From the NCBI GenBank assembly GCA_949292185.1, contig CASEYP010000029.1, positions 1 through 64,000 on the forward strand: DNA of 64,000 nt, read 5' to 3'. The position numbers were made by a program, and so were the translations under genes. Positions 2,337 through 53,673 of this stretch are shown here, piece after piece (the first letter of the stretch is position 1; every line of letters begins with the position of its first letter). The DNA is from an uncultured bacterium. Lineage in GTDB: Bacteria > Cyanobacteriota > Vampirovibrionia > Gastranaerophilales > Gastranaerophilaceae. The notes beneath the pieces were generated by a model that saw only the letters and a list, made by a program, of their open reading frames with translations, did no database searches and had not been told where the DNA came from.

Positions 2337-2990
2337 ATGCAAATAAATAAAGTAAATTCAGCAAATACATTCACATCAAGAAACAACCCAATTCCAACAG
2401 AAACCTTTGTGTCTGCAATTGGGAAAATCACTATGGGTGAAGCCACAAAAGATGATATTACCCCTGTTGCAAAACTTATCAGACAAAGAGAAATGATAAG
2501 TTTCAAACTAAGAAACTTTTATGGAGAAAATGCAGCTGAAGCAAAAGAATATTACAAACAAATAAACAAAAACCAATGGCTTAAAGATATAAAAAAATAC
2601 TTAACTGACCTGTTGAAAAAACCTGATGGAAATTCATCTGTATTAGTTGCCAAAAACGAAGATGGAAAAGTAATTGGTTATGCAACAATGGAAAGCTTTG
2701 ACAAGGTTAAAGAAAATGTTGGAATTATAGAAAATATACATTTGGATTTTAAATATACAAAAAGCAATCTTGGATATTATCTGCTACAAAAAATATTACA
2801 AACAGGCAACGGACAATTTAACGACATTTTATGCAGAGCGCCATATATAGGCGGTCATGAAATATACTACAATTTCGGGTTCAAAACTTTACCTGCAAAT
2901 TGTAATGCCGCAAAAATCTTAAACACCCTAAATGCAGATGAAAATGAATATCAAGGTTGGATGAGCAAAAAATTAAATTACTTTTTATAA
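2337..2990 (+). CDS. GNAT-like acetyltransferase with N-terminal tag-like leader
   Basis: 217 residues. The segment VLVAKNEDGKVIGYATMES (about 100-118), followed by IENIHLDFKYTKSNLGYYLL and the late YYNFGFKTL, fits the beta4-alpha3 and C-terminal strands of a GNAT fold. The acetyl-CoA P-loop (normally Q/RxxGxG/A) appears as KSNLGYYLLQ and is weak. The start MQINKVNS followed by a TFTSR near residue 12 resembles the leader seen in several unrelated proteins of this window. The gene overlaps its convergent neighbour by 6 bases at the stop codons. Function beyond a likely N-acetyltransferase fold is unknown. Confidence 0.6.
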   Translation: MQINKVNSANTFTSRNNPIPTETFVSAIGKITMGEATKDDITPVAKLIRQREMISFKLRNFYGENAAEAKEYYKQINKNQWLKDIKKYLTDLLKKPDGNSSVLVAKNEDGKVIGYATMESFDKVKENVGIIENIHLDFKYTKSNLGYYLLQKILQTGNGQFNDILCRAPYIGGHEIYYNFGFKTLPANCNAAKILNTLNADENEYQGWMSKKLNYFL

Positions 2991-3707
2991 TCTGACTTCT
3001 CGTTTTAAATAAGCATCCTCAAGACGATATTTAATTTCCTTACCTTTCATATAAGGAACAAAATAAGCCTCAAATCTCATATCTTTTGGTCTATTCTGAG
3101 ATAAAAGATTTTTAATAATTTTTTCTGCATCACTACGATAATTTTTTGCAGCTTCACTAACAGAGTTTTCCGCGGACTTGGTTAGATAGGCATTTGCCCT
3201 CTGTCCTTCAATACCAAAATATTTACTAAGGTTGTCTTTTTTTGTTTTTATAGCACCTCTTGCTTGCCCAATAGGTTTAGCAGCCGCCTCAACCATATCA
3301 CAAGACGGACCTGACAGAATAAATGAAATCATTCTTCCATCTTGTTTACTTGCGGTATAAAAAGATCTTACAAACGGGCGTTTTGCATAATCAGGATCGT
3401 TCAATTGAAAAAATCGTGCCAATCTAATTTTCAATGCTTTTTCATCTGCCGTTTCTGATTTTGAAACTTTTGGAGACTTCCCCTGCCTAATATTTTTTGC
3501 ATCATTAAAAGATTGATTTAACCAGGTAACAATTTTCCTTTGCAAGGTTTTGATAGTTCTATTTGCACTAACCTGAGTGTACTTTCCATCATTACCCTTA
3601 ACAAAATAAACTGCTCTATGAATAGATGTAAAACTAGGTTTTTCATTCATAGAACCTTTCGTTGAAAAATTATTATAATTTTGAAATTGAATATTACTTA
3701 TCAACAT
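2985..3707 (-). CDS. Unknown protein with N-terminal SFTS tag
   Basis: 240 residues. I do not recognise the family. The N-terminus is MLISNIQF, an Asn/Ser-rich stretch, then P-S-F-T-S at residues 24-28. After that comes a charged, probably helical protein with no signal peptide or membrane segment. The middle contains a Lys/Ser-rich stretch (KSPKVSKSETADEK) and FILSGPSCDMVEAAAKP. The start at 3707 is preferred over the longer frame to 3746 because AAAAGGA sits 6 bases upstream. It is convergent with the GNAT-like gene, whose stop overlaps its own. The leader is the bipartite signature discussed in the findings. Confidence 0.65.
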   Translation of the reverse strand: MLISNIQFQNYNNFSTKGSMNEKPSFTSIHRAVYFVKGNDGKYTQVSANRTIKTLQRKIVTWLNQSFNDAKNIRQGKSPKVSKSETADEKALKIRLARFFQLNDPDYAKRPFVRSFYTASKQDGRMISFILSGPSCDMVEAAAKPIGQARGAIKTKKDNLSKYFGIEGQRANAYLTKSAENSVSEAAKNYRSDAEKIIKNLLSQNRPKDMRFEAYFVPYMKGKEIKYRLEDAYLKREVRL

Positions 3708-3890
3708 AAAATATCCTTTTAAATTAACCCCTGAATACATACACATTAAATCAAATAAAAATAATTTTTGCTAACTAAACTAAATAAATAAAATTTGTTG
3801 TTACAGAATTTTACAAAAAGAAAGCAAAAAACTATAAAAAGAAAATAAACTATGCTACATTAAAAATGTGTATATTAGATAGGAGGGTAT

Positions 3891-8350: not shown

Positions 8351-9754
8351 ATGCTTGTTTCAAAAATTCAAAACTTTAATTTTAATTACGGATACAATCC
8401 ACAAAACGATAGACTAAGAAAAACTCAAAGTCTGCAATACGGTATTTCACCCCTAAAATCAGATACTTTTGTAAAAAATACCCAAACTATTGGCAATAAA
8501 GATATATCTTTTAACGGAACCATTTCAAGCATAAATACAACGTTTGAAACAAGATTTACAAAATTATTTTTCAAAAAACTGTTAAGAGAAGGAATACCTG
8601 ATGCATATTCAAATATAACTTTAATTCCAAACAAAGACATTGATGAATTAAAAAATTTAGGAGTCCTAAACAAAAAAAGTTCCCTTGCAATAAAATATCT
8701 AAAGGTCTACAAAAACAATCTTTTTCCTGTGGAAAAAGAAATGTTATCATTATTAGAAACATTATCTAAAAAAAATCCGGATTTAACATTGCAAGAACTT
8801 CTACACTTAAAACTTCAAAGTGCAGAACAATCTCTTATCAACCATCAGAGTAAAGTTCTAAACAAAATCAGTTTAATGAGTAAAACACTACCTCGAAACG
8901 AATTTTTAGAAGTAAGAAAACTTCTACAATATTCTTATAATAAAATCTTTACACCAGATCCACTGCCAGAAGAAAGATTTGGGAGAAAAGAATTTATTGG
9001 AATGTTAAAAAGAATTCCTATAACTGATCAAAAAACAAAACAAAAAATTCTAAACACAGCATACAAATTACCGCAATCAGCAGATTCCGTACACGCATTT
9101 ATTGTAAAATACTCCCAGCCATATAAAGTTGAACATAATGCAAACGGTGAAATAATAAGAATACCAAGAGATTCAGAAGAAATAGGATTAAGACTCTTAA
9201 TGCCATCTGTAGCCACAGATGATCATATTCACCCACAAAAAGCATTTAGAGAAGAAGAACTTGCAAGAAAATTAGGCGATAAATCCGCTGAAAATTTAAG
9301 TAAATTGCGAGTAAGCATTCTAACATCAAAAAAAATGAATGAACTAAAATCAGATACCCCTATAGATGATTTTATAGAAACTCAAGAAATAAATATTCCA
9401 GAACACATACAACATCAGATAAACAAACTTCTAGATATAACTGACAAATGGTATAACCAAGGAAGATATGAAGATGCTAACACTTTAGCTGACTATATTT
9501 TTGTACTACAGAAGGAATTTGAATTACGCTCATCAAAAATAAAAGTCGACCTTGGAAAATTTGAAGAAAAAGTTCCAACAATACAGGAAAAAGCTCAAAT
9601 TGCCAGAGAAAACAGACTACTAAAAAAAGAAACTAAAAATACCAAAAGAATGAGCAATGCAAATAATAATCATAGAGAACATTACGAAGATAAAAACGGT
9701 CATATTTTAGAAAATAGAAAAGTTTTAAAACACTCCTCCAGATTTAATCAATAA
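8351..9754 (+). CDS. Unknown protein with N-terminal SFNG tag
   Basis: 467 residues. Not recognised. It starts MLVSKIQNFNFNYG, runs through about 50 Asn/Gln/Ser-rich residues, and reaches D-I-S-F-N-G-T (S53-G56) just before a mostly alpha-helical body. A segment ATDDHIHPQKAF near 295 has the Asp-His-x-His-Pro look of HNH-type or metal-binding sites, but I cannot complete the motif. The C-terminus is Lys/Arg/Asn-rich and probably disordered. No signal peptide or membrane segment is seen. It stands alone between tsaB and the zinc-ribbon gene, with no clear ribosome site. Confidence 0.65.
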   Translation: MLVSKIQNFNFNYGYNPQNDRLRKTQSLQYGISPLKSDTFVKNTQTIGNKDISFNGTISSINTTFETRFTKLFFKKLLREGIPDAYSNITLIPNKDIDELKNLGVLNKKSSLAIKYLKVYKNNLFPVEKEMLSLLETLSKKNPDLTLQELLHLKLQSAEQSLINHQSKVLNKISLMSKTLPRNEFLEVRKLLQYSYNKIFTPDPLPEERFGRKEFIGMLKRIPITDQKTKQKILNTAYKLPQSADSVHAFIVKYSQPYKVEHNANGEIIRIPRDSEEIGLRLLMPSVATDDHIHPQKAFREEELARKLGDKSAENLSKLRVSILTSKKMNELKSDTPIDDFIETQEINIPEHIQHQINKLLDITDKWYNQGRYEDANTLADYIFVLQKEFELRSSKIKVDLGKFEEKVPTIQEKAQIARENRLLKKETKNTKRMSNANNNHREHYEDKNGHILENRKVLKHSSRFNQ

Positions 9755-45077: not shown

Positions 45078-45134
45078 TAATAAAATAACAAAAAATATAA
45101 TTAGGAGTTTTAATACTCAAATACAGGAGGTCAC

Positions 45135-47021
45135 ATGAGAATATACAAAATTACAAACCAAAACAACACTATTAATTTTAATCAAAATAAGAATATTAAT
45201 AACTCCGCAATACAAAACACAAATTCTAATACTAACTATAACAACCAAAAACTTATAACTCAGCTAAACAATTTAGCAAAAATAAATGCTATTTCATTTT
45301 CAGGCAAACAAAATTATGAAATTGGCTTATCAGATGAGGAATTAGATAGACGAAGTGATTCAAAAAAAATTGCTACAATAAAATTATTATCAACAGACTC
45401 ACCTGAATATCAAAGCTTATCTGAAGGCGATAAAAAAGCTTTAAAACACCTTATAAAAGCAGCTGATTATATAGCTGATGTTGAATTACAACTTGATGAT
45501 AAAAATAATATACCTTTTAGAAAATATTTAGAACAAGAAATTGAAAACGGTAATCCAAAAGCCGAAAAAGCTATGAGATTATTTAAAGGTCAAAAAGGTA
45601 TTTTTTCAAAAGATACAAATATGGAAGAAATATCTTTAGCCAAAGGTCTAAAACAATCACCGGGAAGAGGTGTTTACCCTAGAGATTTATCTGTAGAAGA
45701 ATTTCACAATATATTATTTAAAATGATTGATGAAGGCAAAGATGAAGAAGTTAAAAAAATTCTAAACCAAAGATCAGTTGTAGTAAGAAATGGGGATGAA
45801 TTAAAAGGCATAGATTACGTAGATAGATTTCACAAAGAATTTGACCACGCTGCAGATGAACTATCTAAAGCATCAATTCTATCATCAAACAAAGATTTTA
45901 ACGACTATTTAAAATTACAAGCCGCAGCACTTCTTGTAGCTGACCCGATGTTAGACGCTTATGCCGATAAAAAATGGGCAACACTTCAAGATACACCTTT
46001 AGAATTCACAATTACACGTGAAAATTACGAAGATAAAATGACTCAAACTATATTTAAAAACAAAGAACTTCTAAACTTACTAGAAGAACACGGAATAACA
46101 CCTATTTCAAAAGATTTTCTAGGAGGAAGAGTCGGTATCGTAAACAGAGAAGGAACAGAATATTTACTAAAATCAAAAGCATATCTTCCTGAACTTGCAA
46201 AATTAATGCCATATAATGATGAATATGAACAAACAATTAAAAATGACAACAAGCAAACAATGGTAGATGTCGACCTTGTAGATGTAACAGGTGCGGTTGG
46301 AGAATACAGAGGCAAAATTACCATTGCCGAAAATCTGCCAAATTCAGACAAATTATCACTTACAATAGATGGAGGAAGACGTAATGTTTACCATAGGCAA
46401 ATGAGAGCTAACAAAGAAAAAACTTTAAAAGTATACAGAGATTTGTTACTTCCGGAACAAAGAGAATACCTATCAGTTGATGATTACCACCATTTTACAG
46501 TAGGACATGAAAATGCCCACTCTCTTGGACCGACAAAAAACAATGCAAAACTTGGAGAATATAGAAATATTCTTGAAGAAAACAAAGCTGATGTAGCTGC
46601 AATTTCATTTGTTGATAAACTGACAGAACTTGGTGTATACACAGAAAAAGAAAGAAAAGGTTTACTTATAAATTTTGTACTCCAAAATTTCCTAAAGGCA
46701 AAACCTGATATGGAAGTAGCACATAGAGTAAGACAAGTTATGCAATGCAAATATTTAAAAGATAACGGAGCCTACGAAATATTAGACAACGGAAAAATTT
46801 ACATAAACGTTGATAAAGTTGTCCCAGCTTGTCAAAAAATGCTAAAAGAAATCATCAGAATCCAAGCAGATGGAGATTATGATGCTGCAAAAGAGTTTAT
46901 AAATAAGAATTTTGTATGGACAGATGATATGGAATATGTTTCACAAATTCTTCAAAAGAATCAATCCGCACTAAACGGAGAAATAGATGCTCCGCTTGCT
47001 GATGATTTAAGAAACTCCTAA
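45135..47021 (+). CDS. M49-like (dipeptidyl-peptidase III-like) metallopeptidase with SFSG-tagged leader
   Basis: 628 residues. The catalytic region is H458-E-N-A-H462-S-L-G-P with a second Glu motif EENKAD (481-486), 19 residues on. This arrangement resembles DPP III-type zinc peptidases, in which HExxxH or HExxH is followed by E-E-x-x-A-D/E. The body before it is helical. The first 57 residues are an Asn-rich leader starting MRIYKITNQN and ending A-I-S-F-S-G (S54-G57); the next gene, a clear paralogue, lacks them. AGGAGG lies 5-6 bases before the ATG. Cytoplasmic or exported location is open. Confidence 0.75.
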   Translation: MRIYKITNQNNTINFNQNKNINNSAIQNTNSNTNYNNQKLITQLNNLAKINAISFSGKQNYEIGLSDEELDRRSDSKKIATIKLLSTDSPEYQSLSEGDKKALKHLIKAADYIADVELQLDDKNNIPFRKYLEQEIENGNPKAEKAMRLFKGQKGIFSKDTNMEEISLAKGLKQSPGRGVYPRDLSVEEFHNILFKMIDEGKDEEVKKILNQRSVVVRNGDELKGIDYVDRFHKEFDHAADELSKASILSSNKDFNDYLKLQAAALLVADPMLDAYADKKWATLQDTPLEFTITRENYEDKMTQTIFKNKELLNLLEEHGITPISKDFLGGRVGIVNREGTEYLLKSKAYLPELAKLMPYNDEYEQTIKNDNKQTMVDVDLVDVTGAVGEYRGKITIAENLPNSDKLSLTIDGGRRNVYHRQMRANKEKTLKVYRDLLLPEQREYLSVDDYHHFTVGHENAHSLGPTKNNAKLGEYRNILEENKADVAAISFVDKLTELGVYTEKERKGLLINFVLQNFLKAKPDMEVAHRVRQVMQCKYLKDNGAYEILDNGKIYINVDKVVPACQKMLKEIIRIQADGDYDAAKEFINKNFVWTDDMEYVSQILQKNQSALNGEIDAPLADDLRNS

Positions 47022-47118
47022 AACGCAATAATAATCACTTACACCAAATAACTTATTGCAAAATAAGAAAAAAAAGTGCTATAATCCTTTTGACAATAGA
47101 TAAAAGGAGAGTTTTATA

Positions 47119-48852
47119 ATGCCAAAATTTGAATTTAATCTAACTCTTGAAGAGTTACAAAAGCGAACAAATAAGGATTACTTAATCACAAAGAAATTTC
47201 TAAAAGCTGATGCACCTGAATACCTGGCACTTGCCCAAGGTGATAAACAAGCGCTAAAACATTTATGCAAAGCTGCAGCAATTCTTGAAAAAATAAATAT
47301 GCAAATTGATTGCAAACACAATTTAGAAGTAAAAGAATTTTTAGAAGAAGAAATTTCAAAAGGAAATGAACAAGCAAGATTAACAAAAATCTTATTTGAT
47401 GCTCAAAAAGGTGTAAATGCAATCGACTCAATGTCAAATCATATTAGATTAATTAAAGGTATCGAAGAAAAACCGGGAAAAGGTGTTTACCCTGAAGATC
47501 TATCAAAAGAGGAATTTCATAAAATCATCCTAAAAATGATGAACGAAGGCAAAATCAACGAAGTTAAAAATATTCTAACTCAACGTTCAGTAGTAGAAAG
47601 ATCAGGAGATGAATTAGTCGGAATAGATTATATAGACAAATTCAAAGATGATTTTGCAAAAATGGCAGATGAACTTGATAAAGCCGCAGAAACTTCAACA
47701 AATAAAGATTTTAATGAATACCTAAATCTTCAATCAAAAGCACTAAGAAAAGCTGACCCAATGTTAGATGCTTATGCTGATAAAAAGTGGGCAACACTTC
47801 AAGATACCCCGCTAGAATTTACAATAACCAGAGAAAACTATGAAGATGAAATGACAGGTACAATAGTAGAAAATGAAGAATTATCAAATCTTTTAAAAGA
47901 ACACGGAATCTCTCCAATACCAAAAGACTTTTTAGGTGGCAGAGTCGGTATTATTAACAAAAAGGGTACCGAAGCACTTATGGCAATAAAAAAATACTTA
48001 CCAACACTAGCAGACAATATGCCATACAAAGATGAATATGAACAAACCATCTCATCAGAAGAAGATGCAAAACAAACAATGGTAGATGTTGATATGGTAA
48101 TGGCATCAGGAGATGTTGGAGAATACAGAGGCGGTATAACTTTAGCAGAAAATTTACCAAACTCTGACAAATTATCACTTACAATAGGTGGCGGAAGACG
48201 TAATGTTTATCATAGACAAATAAGATTTATAAGTGATATGAAAAAATTGCAAGAACGCTTAGATGCAATTCTTGATCCTGAACAACATAAATACTATTTA
48301 GATGAAGCTGACCACTGGTTCACAATAGGACATGAAAACGCTCACTCACTTGGGCCAAAAGAAAGCAGCGAAAATCTAGGAAAATATAGAAATATTATTG
48401 AAGAAAATAAAGCAGATATGGGTTCTTTAGCATTCGTTGATTTGTTAACAGAACTTGGAATGTATACACCGGAACAAAGATTACAAATCATTGTAACAAC
48501 AATGACTGATAACTTCCTAAAATCTAAACCAACCCTATCTCAAGCCCACAGAGTAAGAACCGTAATGCAAAACAAATATTTTGCAGATAGAGGAGGCTAT
48601 ACAATTACTCCTGAAGGAAAAATTCACGTAAACATTGATAAAGTAGTTCCAATAGCAAAAGAAATGCTAGCTGAGATTATTAGAATTCAAATCGATGGTG
48701 ATTTTAATAAGGCTGAAAAATATGTAATGGATAACTTTGTATGGACTGATAATATGGAGTTAATAGCTCAAAAACTTCAAAAAGTAAGTAAATCTCTAAA
48801 TGGAACATTAGAAACAGAATTAGCAGATAAATTGCTTTCTGATGAAATATAA
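47119..48852 (+). CDS. M49-like metallopeptidase, untagged paralogue
   Basis: 577 residues, aligned along its whole length with the preceding protein (identical runs such as DPMLDAYADKKWATLQD). Zinc motif H405-E-N-A-H409-SLGP and EENKAD at 428-433 are conserved. It begins MPKFEFNLTLEELQ, that is at the folded domain, with no leader. AAAGGAGA lies 8 bases before the ATG. It is a tandem duplicate, with its own ribosome site and a shared terminator. Confidence 0.75.
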   Translation: MPKFEFNLTLEELQKRTNKDYLITKKFLKADAPEYLALAQGDKQALKHLCKAAAILEKINMQIDCKHNLEVKEFLEEEISKGNEQARLTKILFDAQKGVNAIDSMSNHIRLIKGIEEKPGKGVYPEDLSKEEFHKIILKMMNEGKINEVKNILTQRSVVERSGDELVGIDYIDKFKDDFAKMADELDKAAETSTNKDFNEYLNLQSKALRKADPMLDAYADKKWATLQDTPLEFTITRENYEDEMTGTIVENEELSNLLKEHGISPIPKDFLGGRVGIINKKGTEALMAIKKYLPTLADNMPYKDEYEQTISSEEDAKQTMVDVDMVMASGDVGEYRGGITLAENLPNSDKLSLTIGGGRRNVYHRQIRFISDMKKLQERLDAILDPEQHKYYLDEADHWFTIGHENAHSLGPKESSENLGKYRNIIEENKADMGSLAFVDLLTELGMYTPEQRLQIIVTTMTDNFLKSKPTLSQAHRVRTVMQNKYFADRGGYTITPEGKIHVNIDKVVPIAKEMLAEIIRIQIDGDFNKAEKYVMDNFVWTDNMELIAQKLQKVSKSLNGTLETELADKLLSDEI

Positions 48853-48882: not shown

Positions 48883-48924
48883 AAAATGGGATTATTAAAC
48901 TTTAAAATTTAATAATCCTATTTT
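48883..48924 (+). terminator. Bidirectional terminator
   Basis: A 17-bp stem AAAATGGGATTATTAAA / TTTAATAATCCTATTTT (one G-T pair), with T runs on both strands, lies between the metallopeptidase and the convergent phosphatase gene, whose stop is inside it. Confidence 0.85.
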
Positions 48925-49409
48925 TTATATTTATTCACAAAATTCAAACCCCATTCAATTAAATTCGGATATTTTTCTAAATTAAGCCCTCTTGCAATCC
49001 ACTCATTAATATTTTCTGTAGTTGAACCAATATTTTTTAAAGATTTATAAATAAAAGAATAAAGCCCTGTTCTATCAGCACCATGCCAGCAATGAATATG
49101 AATTTTAGCATTTTTTGAAGTTAAATCATCAACAACATCTAAAAAATTCAAAACACTTTTTTCATCCGGAGCCTGAGATGAAGATGGGATATGATGATAA
49201 TTCATTCCGCAAGATTTTACTAAACTTCTTTCATCAAATATCGGGAATTTTGGATCTTTCAAAGTTCGCAAATTAATAATATCTGTAACCCCTTGATTTT
49301 TTAACCATATAAAATCATCTTTCTGGGGCTGAGCAGAACGAGACAAATCTTTATCTATAACTGCATAATTTGCAGGTTTACCCTGAAATGAAATTTGTTG
49401 AACTTTCAT
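48918..49409 (-). CDS. Tyrosine/dual-specificity phosphatase with N-terminal SFQG tag
   Basis: 163 residues. The PTP loop is H106-C107-W-H-G-A-D-R113-T-G, a full C-x5-R, and D82 in SSSQAPDE could be the general acid. LSRSAQPQKDDF and GVTDIINLRTLKDP are family-like. It starts MKVQQISFQGKP: the S-F-x-G motif is at residues 7-10, the shortest leader in the window, with the enzyme directly after. It should dephosphorylate protein Tyr/Ser/Thr or a phospho-lipid or -sugar. No ribosome site is evident; TATGAT 14-19 bases before the ATG suggests a very short leader. Confidence 0.82.
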   Translation of the reverse strand: MKVQQISFQGKPANYAVIDKDLSRSAQPQKDDFIWLKNQGVTDIINLRTLKDPKFPIFDERSLVKSCGMNYHHIPSSSQAPDEKSVLNFLDVVDDLTSKNAKIHIHCWHGADRTGLYSFIYKSLKNIGSTTENINEWIARGLNLEKYPNLIEWGLNFVNKYKK

Positions 49410-53148: not shown

Positions 53149-53673
53149 ATGTCAGCAATCGAAAAAATCAATCAATTAAGCCATCGTATCTTCAATACGA
53201 GCGTAACTGAACAAAACGTTGCAAGATCAAGCAACCCGTTCGCAGCTTCAAACTTTCAAAAGAATATCTTAACTGAAGATGTTTTTGAATCAAGCAAAAA
53301 AGATGAAAAGAAAAATGTTAGTTTTACAGGAAATCTAACAGCAAGTTCTAAAAGAATCTATTCAACATTTGTAGGTTCTCTAACAGACTTTGGTAACAAA
53401 TTCTATGAAGGCATCGAAGCTATCAAAGAATTTGGCGTAAAAATGAAAGACGGCATTGTAAATGCTTGGAATAAAATAAATGAAATTGGTAACACTGAAG
53501 TTTCATTTGACGGAGCAAAGAAAGTTTTATCAAGAGATATCACTTCATTCTTTATCAACAGCCACGATAGAGAAATTGCTAAAATGTCAAAAATGGACCC
53601 TCATACAGAATTGAAACCAATGTTGAAAGAAAGTCTAGCTGCATTAGAATCAGACATGGCAGCGGCTGCATAA
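53149..53673 (+). CDS. Small tagged protein with amphipathic helix
   Basis: 174 residues, unrecognised. The leader of about 57 residues starts MSAIEKINQL and is Ser/Asn/Lys-rich; V-S-F-T-G-N is at 57-62. Then follows a long amphipathic helical region with repeating FGNKFYEGIEAIKEFG and VKMKDGIVNAWNKINE, somewhat like phasins, and a C-terminus ending AAAA. GAGG lies about 9 bases before the ATG. A second gene begins 10 bases after its stop. Confidence 0.65.
   Translation: MSAIEKINQLSHRIFNTSVTEQNVARSSNPFAASNFQKNILTEDVFESSKKDEKKNVSFTGNLTASSKRIYSTFVGSLTDFGNKFYEGIEAIKEFGVKMKDGIVNAWNKINEIGNTEVSFDGAKKVLSRDITSFFINSHDREIAKMSKMDPHTELKPMLKESLAALESDMAAAA

Follow-up and report, generated by a model that had tools for sequence, protein, structure and literature searches.

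The tandem pair and its two starts

The window, as we call the whole stretch of 64,000 nucleotides analysed here, comes from an uncultured member of the Gastranaerophilales and contains, in the order rlmH (a name given from sequence), T and U, two tandem genes for related proteins (Table 1). In some loci without T, rlmH lies directly before U. The preliminary description had presented T and U as tandem metallopeptidase paralogues at 45135-48852, and both coordinates and reading frames proved correct. The two proteins are identical at 332 of 569 residues (58%), with 4 gaps. They align from T61 and U4, that is from the folded domain on as had been proposed, and the long identical runs are indeed present, the longest having 31 residues (DPMLDAYADKKWATLQDTPLEFTITRENYED). 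Ahead of the domain T carries the 57-residue Asn-rich leader already seen in the first reading, with 18 Asn by direct count and ISFSG as its last residues; U starts at the domain.

Table 1. Positions of the genes and signals discussed in the text (window numbering unless a contig or locus is named)
Feature	Position	Strand	Basis
T, long-form M49 (DPP III family) metallopeptidase, 628 aa	45135..47021	+	ORF list; PDB 6eom E 7.6e-27; fold match
Leader of T, 57 residues, Asn-rich, MRIYKI ... QLNNLAKINAISFSG	45135..45305	+	sequence; disordered in model
Shine-Dalgarno of T, AGGAGG, 4 nt before ATG	45125..45130	+	sequence
Zinc motif of T, HENAH (HExxH)	46506..46520	+	invariant in 31 aligned copies
Second M49 motif of T, EENKAD (EExxAD)	46575..46592	+	alignment
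Promoter of U, TTGCAA, 18-nt spacer, TATAAT	47056..47085	+	sequence; most untagged copies have a -10 box some 25-40 nt 5' of the start
Shine-Dalgarno of U, AAGGAG, 9 nt before ATG; proposed descendant of the ancestral internal Shine-Dalgarno	47104..47109	+	
U, short-form M49 metallopeptidase, 577 aa, starting at the domain	47119..48852	+	ORF list; alignment to T
Zinc motif of U, HENAH	48331..48345	+	alignment
Second M49 motif of U, EENKAD	48400..48417	+	alignment
FlhA/FlhB with FliE, FliF, FliH	G000 C2:127893-129884, C7:107620-108645; L241:14034-19000		

The preliminary description had itself named two ways in which this arrangement could be illusory: an untranslated leader on T, or a misannotated U start with the tag further upstream. 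The leader lies within the open frame behind a strong Shine-Dalgarno, and its pattern, MxIxKI...LxxxxxxNxxxFxG, is kept by T orthologues in two genera. No in-frame ATG, GTG or TTG was found in the window T leader beyond the start codon, up to the domain; since T thus lacks an alternative start ahead of the domain, its sequence indicates a real leader. As for U, its TATAAT lies 33 nt 5' of the ATG, its Shine-Dalgarno is also strong, and the layout recurs in untagged relatives, a TATAAT-like box being present 20-45 nt 5' of the start in 60 of 69 further untagged loci (a set partly overlapping the first). Because of this promoter position, judged by sequence, a hidden tag upstream of U is excluded and the U start is genuine. 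We found no support for either artefact and regard both as extremely improbable.

An M49 peptidase with a leader dispensable for the fold

Pfam and NCBIfam searches with T and U gave no significant family at threshold. A PDB sequence search matched 6eom (E 7.6e-27), titled DPP III from Caldithrix abyssi in Foldseek, and 5zum from Corallococcus. T was modelled with AlphaFold (mean pLDDT 84.9, pTM 0.83); the model is confident over the domain and displays the two-lobed fold; its best 17 Foldseek matches are all DPP III structures, with TM-scores of 0.83-0.86 by target length. Residues H458, E459, H462, E481, E482, A485 and D486 are invariant in an alignment of 31 copies that contains both T and U. 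Sequence and predicted fold place T and U in peptidase family M49 (DPP III) with intact catalytic motifs and, because HENAH and EENKAD are kept in the 31 copies, both are probably active enzymes.

The leader had been supposed to be modular and dispensable for the fold, and this stands: in the model, pLDDT stays below 50 at residues 1-36 and 51-58, with a weak helix at 37-50, and 61 of the 113 orthologues in our tree set do without a leader.

Distribution of long and short copies

The enzyme is present in 254 of 286 sampled genomes of the Gastranaerophilales. In a tree of 113 cores, which was built by a fast search, has no branch support other than SH-aLRT and shows some long branches, window T falls inside a clade of 11 members (support 100) from two genera, all of them leader-bearing and each paired, within its genome, with an untagged U. 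A second and more distant leader-bearing clade gathers copies of g1, g21, g27, g29 and g30 that are located away from the short copy, whether by contig or by position. Tagged and untagged orthologues, whose pairing the preliminary description had suggested looking for, are found together in at least seven genera (g1, g21, g22, g27, g29, g33 and g36). The other families of the order have single, long copies. At least 10 presence/absence changes of the leader are required on the tree; in g30, G298 and G270 lack it, unlike their congeners. Most genomes of the genus carry U without T, and the long form would therefore be dispensable for many of them. A decayed M49 copy with several stops, related to the distant leader-bearing clade, was also observed in G003 (C100:15124-16875).

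An internal start in single-copy relatives

In the single-copy genera g20, g25, g30 and g31, all 46 sampled genes have an uninterrupted frame across a leader that is homologous to the T leader, as exemplified by the alignment of LMKELNIMANRNNISFKG in L161 with LITQLNNLAKINAISFSG in T. Within these leaders, an internal in-frame ATG is preceded by a GGAGCTTGATAA-type sequence, which codes E-L-D-x-M. A GGAG is found 5-11 nt 5' of this ATG in 46/46 genes compared with 13/968 (1.3%) other in-frame ATGs of the same genes; the 46 genes are related, so that such counts are not independent events, and other synonymous sites in them do vary. Codon choice at the site is peculiar. The Glu codon of the Shine-Dalgarno is GAG in 45/46, whereas among 22 conserved Glu columns the second-ranking one reaches 41% and the mean is 25%, and the Leu codon is CTT in 44/46, making it the most uniform among 38 conserved Leu columns. 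The residue preceding the Glu varies (K, E, G, R or M), yet the Shine-Dalgarno is completed every time. The internal start is thus conserved.

Upstream translation is indicated by a signature of selection only. Over 1788 codons upstream of the internal site, in 45 leaders, no in-frame stop occurs (the other frames have 175 and 270), differences are in excess at third positions (63/50/122), and pN/pS is 0.32 in 12 independent pairs. By these measures, the upstream leader is under selection at the protein level. In roughly half of the genes, TATAAT precedes the ATG of this leader by exactly 6 nt; others have a Shine-Dalgarno and several have none. The TATAAT-6 nt-ATG arrangement, seen in many of L101-L104, L112, L113, L161 and L166-L177, implies leaderless mRNAs in these gut bacteria.

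One could suppose that these genera use the internal start only, the upstream frame being a relic, or that GGAG is kept for another purpose, e.g. pausing. The Shine-Dalgarno is indeed stronger at the internal site, and some upstream starts lack one, as this would predict; but a relic accords poorly with the absence of stops, the purifying selection and the recurring MxIxxI start upstream, or with a TATAAT placed so exactly, and we hold this explanation to be quite improbable. We rather consider that the single-copy genes probably make long and short proteoforms. In g20 and g25 the FxG motif lies downstream of the internal start, and the short form there would therefore retain it, the two forms differing by their first 40-odd residues and not by FxG; in g30 and g31 FxG is degenerate.

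A probable passage from two starts to two genes

In the window itself, neither gene has two starts: T is without the internal site and U without the leader, and only the relatives qualify. The loss is consistent across T genes, since in 11/11 the Glu of the Shine-Dalgarno is replaced by Q, G or H and the start Met by L, I or V, and none of the 11 leaders offers another in-frame start preceded by a Shine-Dalgarno. On the side of U, CTT follows the Shine-Dalgarno (GGAGCTT or GGAGnnCTT) in 20/59 U genes vs 6/172 other genes, as expected if the U start descends from the internal start. L279 is an intermediate, in which the internal site is kept and the upstream part is cut off by a stop.

We consider it fairly probable that T and U derive from a gene with two proteoforms, that tandem duplication divided these forms between two genes, and that the leader routes the peptidase to a second site. 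The ancestor would have been one gene with two in-frame starts: the first would give a long form that includes the disordered leader, the second a short form whose N-terminus is close to the domain. This gene would then have been duplicated in tandem downstream of rlmH. In T the upstream start would have persisted and the internal one disappeared, Shine-Dalgarno and start codon alike; in U the leader would have been lost and a start of internal type retained, preceded by a promoter of its own. Most likely the leader would direct a fraction of the peptidase to another site, probably toward the envelope or export, and U would work in the cytosol. Duplication of a two-start gene whose products are divided between the copies is the simplest history that we can infer; the use of both starts, the duplication history and the role in localisation are all three inferred from sequence comparison.

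Alternatively, T could have gained its leader after a plain duplication, with no two-start ancestor. Most sampled copies are untagged (the same 61/113 of the tree set), which would suit such a gain; however, the T leader aligns with the single-copy leader, leaders exist in outgroup families too, and the internal-start pattern is retained in the 5' regions of U. This makes a late gain decidedly unlikely. The pair looks like a division of labour between forms of a two-start gene rather than the addition of a tag. This aspect had escaped the preliminary description: the leader seems to be ancestral, and single-copy relatives apparently produce the long and the short form from separate starts within one gene.

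The leader and its possible destination

The leader has recurring ends, MxIxKI and LxxxxxxNxxxFxG, around a variable, poorly conserved, Asn-rich middle. The IxFxG-type motif is not confined to M49 copies. Within the first 70 residues of other proteins it occurs at 15/46,794 positions vs 5/130,777, an 8.4-fold enrichment (p 8e-6), in a census that covered some 0.4 Mb sampled from G000, with the window among it, and the relatives' loci. For this count M49 copies were removed by motif and one protein was kept per cluster; the distant M49 copy L039 escaped removal, and its omission cuts the count by at most one. Controls in which Y, W, L, I or V replaces F reach at most 1.8-fold. Pfam searches with the other motif-bearing proteins were mostly blank, the only informative matches being GNAT acetyltransferase, DSP phosphatase and DUF2963. 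In the window, an N-terminal FxG/FTS-type motif is also carried by the proteins at 2337-2990, 2985-3746, 8351-9754, 48918-49409 and 53149-53673, which include a GNAT acetyltransferase, a DSP phosphatase (MKVQQISFQGK) and unknowns.

Two relatives have hydrophobic segments at the leader position: the second M49 copy of G257 (L143) has one at its N-terminus in place of the leader, and that of G248 (L140) begins with MQINKI followed by a marginal one that replaces part of it. Because IxFxG is enriched in other N-termini and because of these hydrophobic segments, targeting, probably toward the envelope, is the most likely function of the leader. The earlier idea that it sends one copy to a second location is therefore plausible on sequence grounds. 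A role in tuning stability, assembly or activity, e.g. as an intrinsically disordered regulator or a degron, would agree with a mostly disordered leader with its weak helix, poorly conserved in the middle and devoid of a Sec/Tat-like hydrophobic core. Recurrence of a similar motif at the N-termini of unrelated proteins and the hydrophobic segments of the two relatives count against it, and we retain it as a possible but less probable function.

Known signal classes were also considered. An Asn-rich, hydrophilic leader without a hydrophobic core does not correspond to a Sec signal peptide or to that of a lipoprotein. It contains no GG, and PF03412 was not found in G000, so a double-glycine leader of the C39 transporter type was likewise set aside. 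We found no description of this leader in the open-access literature.

A further candidate route is type III export. All 13 genomes examined in the genus encode FlhA (13/13) and FlhB (13/13), none flagellin (0/13), and MotB gave one weak match and otherwise none; in G000, FliE, FliF and FliH adjoin FlhA. In the other families of the order, flagellin and MotB are present, mostly with two FlhA/FlhB export sets. The set of the genus has the appearance of a non-flagellar type III export apparatus that was retained, and it may export something. At L243:8677-10155 (- strand) we saw a protein of 493 aa in which an unrelated N-terminus is followed by the C-terminal half of FlhA alone; nearly every genome sampled in the order has a similar short copy. 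It had been reported earlier that flagellar genes form incomplete sets in this order (PMC4040986); type III secretion in Gastranaerophilales was not found described in the open-access literature.

That the leader is a secretion signal for this flagellin-less apparatus is in our opinion unlikely. The gene content just described speaks for it, and the leader, being N-terminal, disordered and rich in Asn, is of the same general kind as type III signals. But the link is one of co-occurrence only: every genome searched has the apparatus, hence no contrast is available, no chaperone or adjacency connects the two, and the M49 genes are located elsewhere. The FxG motif does not fit the FxxxPhi match of type III 'gate recognition'. 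Export of leader-bearing proteins by the apparatus is speculation. Still broader, and an outside chance in our eyes, is the idea that several enzymes of the Gastranaerophilales exist in tagged and untagged forms, through two starts or split paralogues, with the tag addressing them to flagellin-less type III export outside the cell.

Comparison with known systems

The leader described here, N-terminal and undescribed in the literature that we found, is found in gut bacteria of a widespread and mostly uncultured group. One bacterial family would offer a natural series, from two-start gene through intermediates to a resolved pair of long and short paralogues. Division by duplication of the products of alternative translation initiation thereby becomes directly testable in bacteria.

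T shares with the bacterial DPP III of Caldithrix abyssi (6eom) and Corallococcus (5zum) the fold, the HExxH pentapeptide zinc motif and the EExxAD motif. It differs from them by its 57-residue leader, by an identity of only 18-24% in structural alignment and by being missed by Pfam and NCBIfam at threshold.

Type III and flagellar export signals are situated at the extreme N-terminus, hydrophilic and disordered, a character common to the T leader. The latter is distinguished by its recurring MxIxKI and IxFxG ends, and its link to an exporter is putative.

Alternative initiation is already known in bacteria, where internal starts give N-terminal proteoform pairs such as CheA L/S, IF2 from infB, SsaQ, CcmM and ClpB (PMC11005335). 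As in these pairs, the single-copy M49 relatives would have one gene with an in-frame internal start and long and short forms. In contrast to them, the M49 case is predicted from codon-level conservation and concerns a peptidase family, some relatives of which carry the two forms as separate paralogues.
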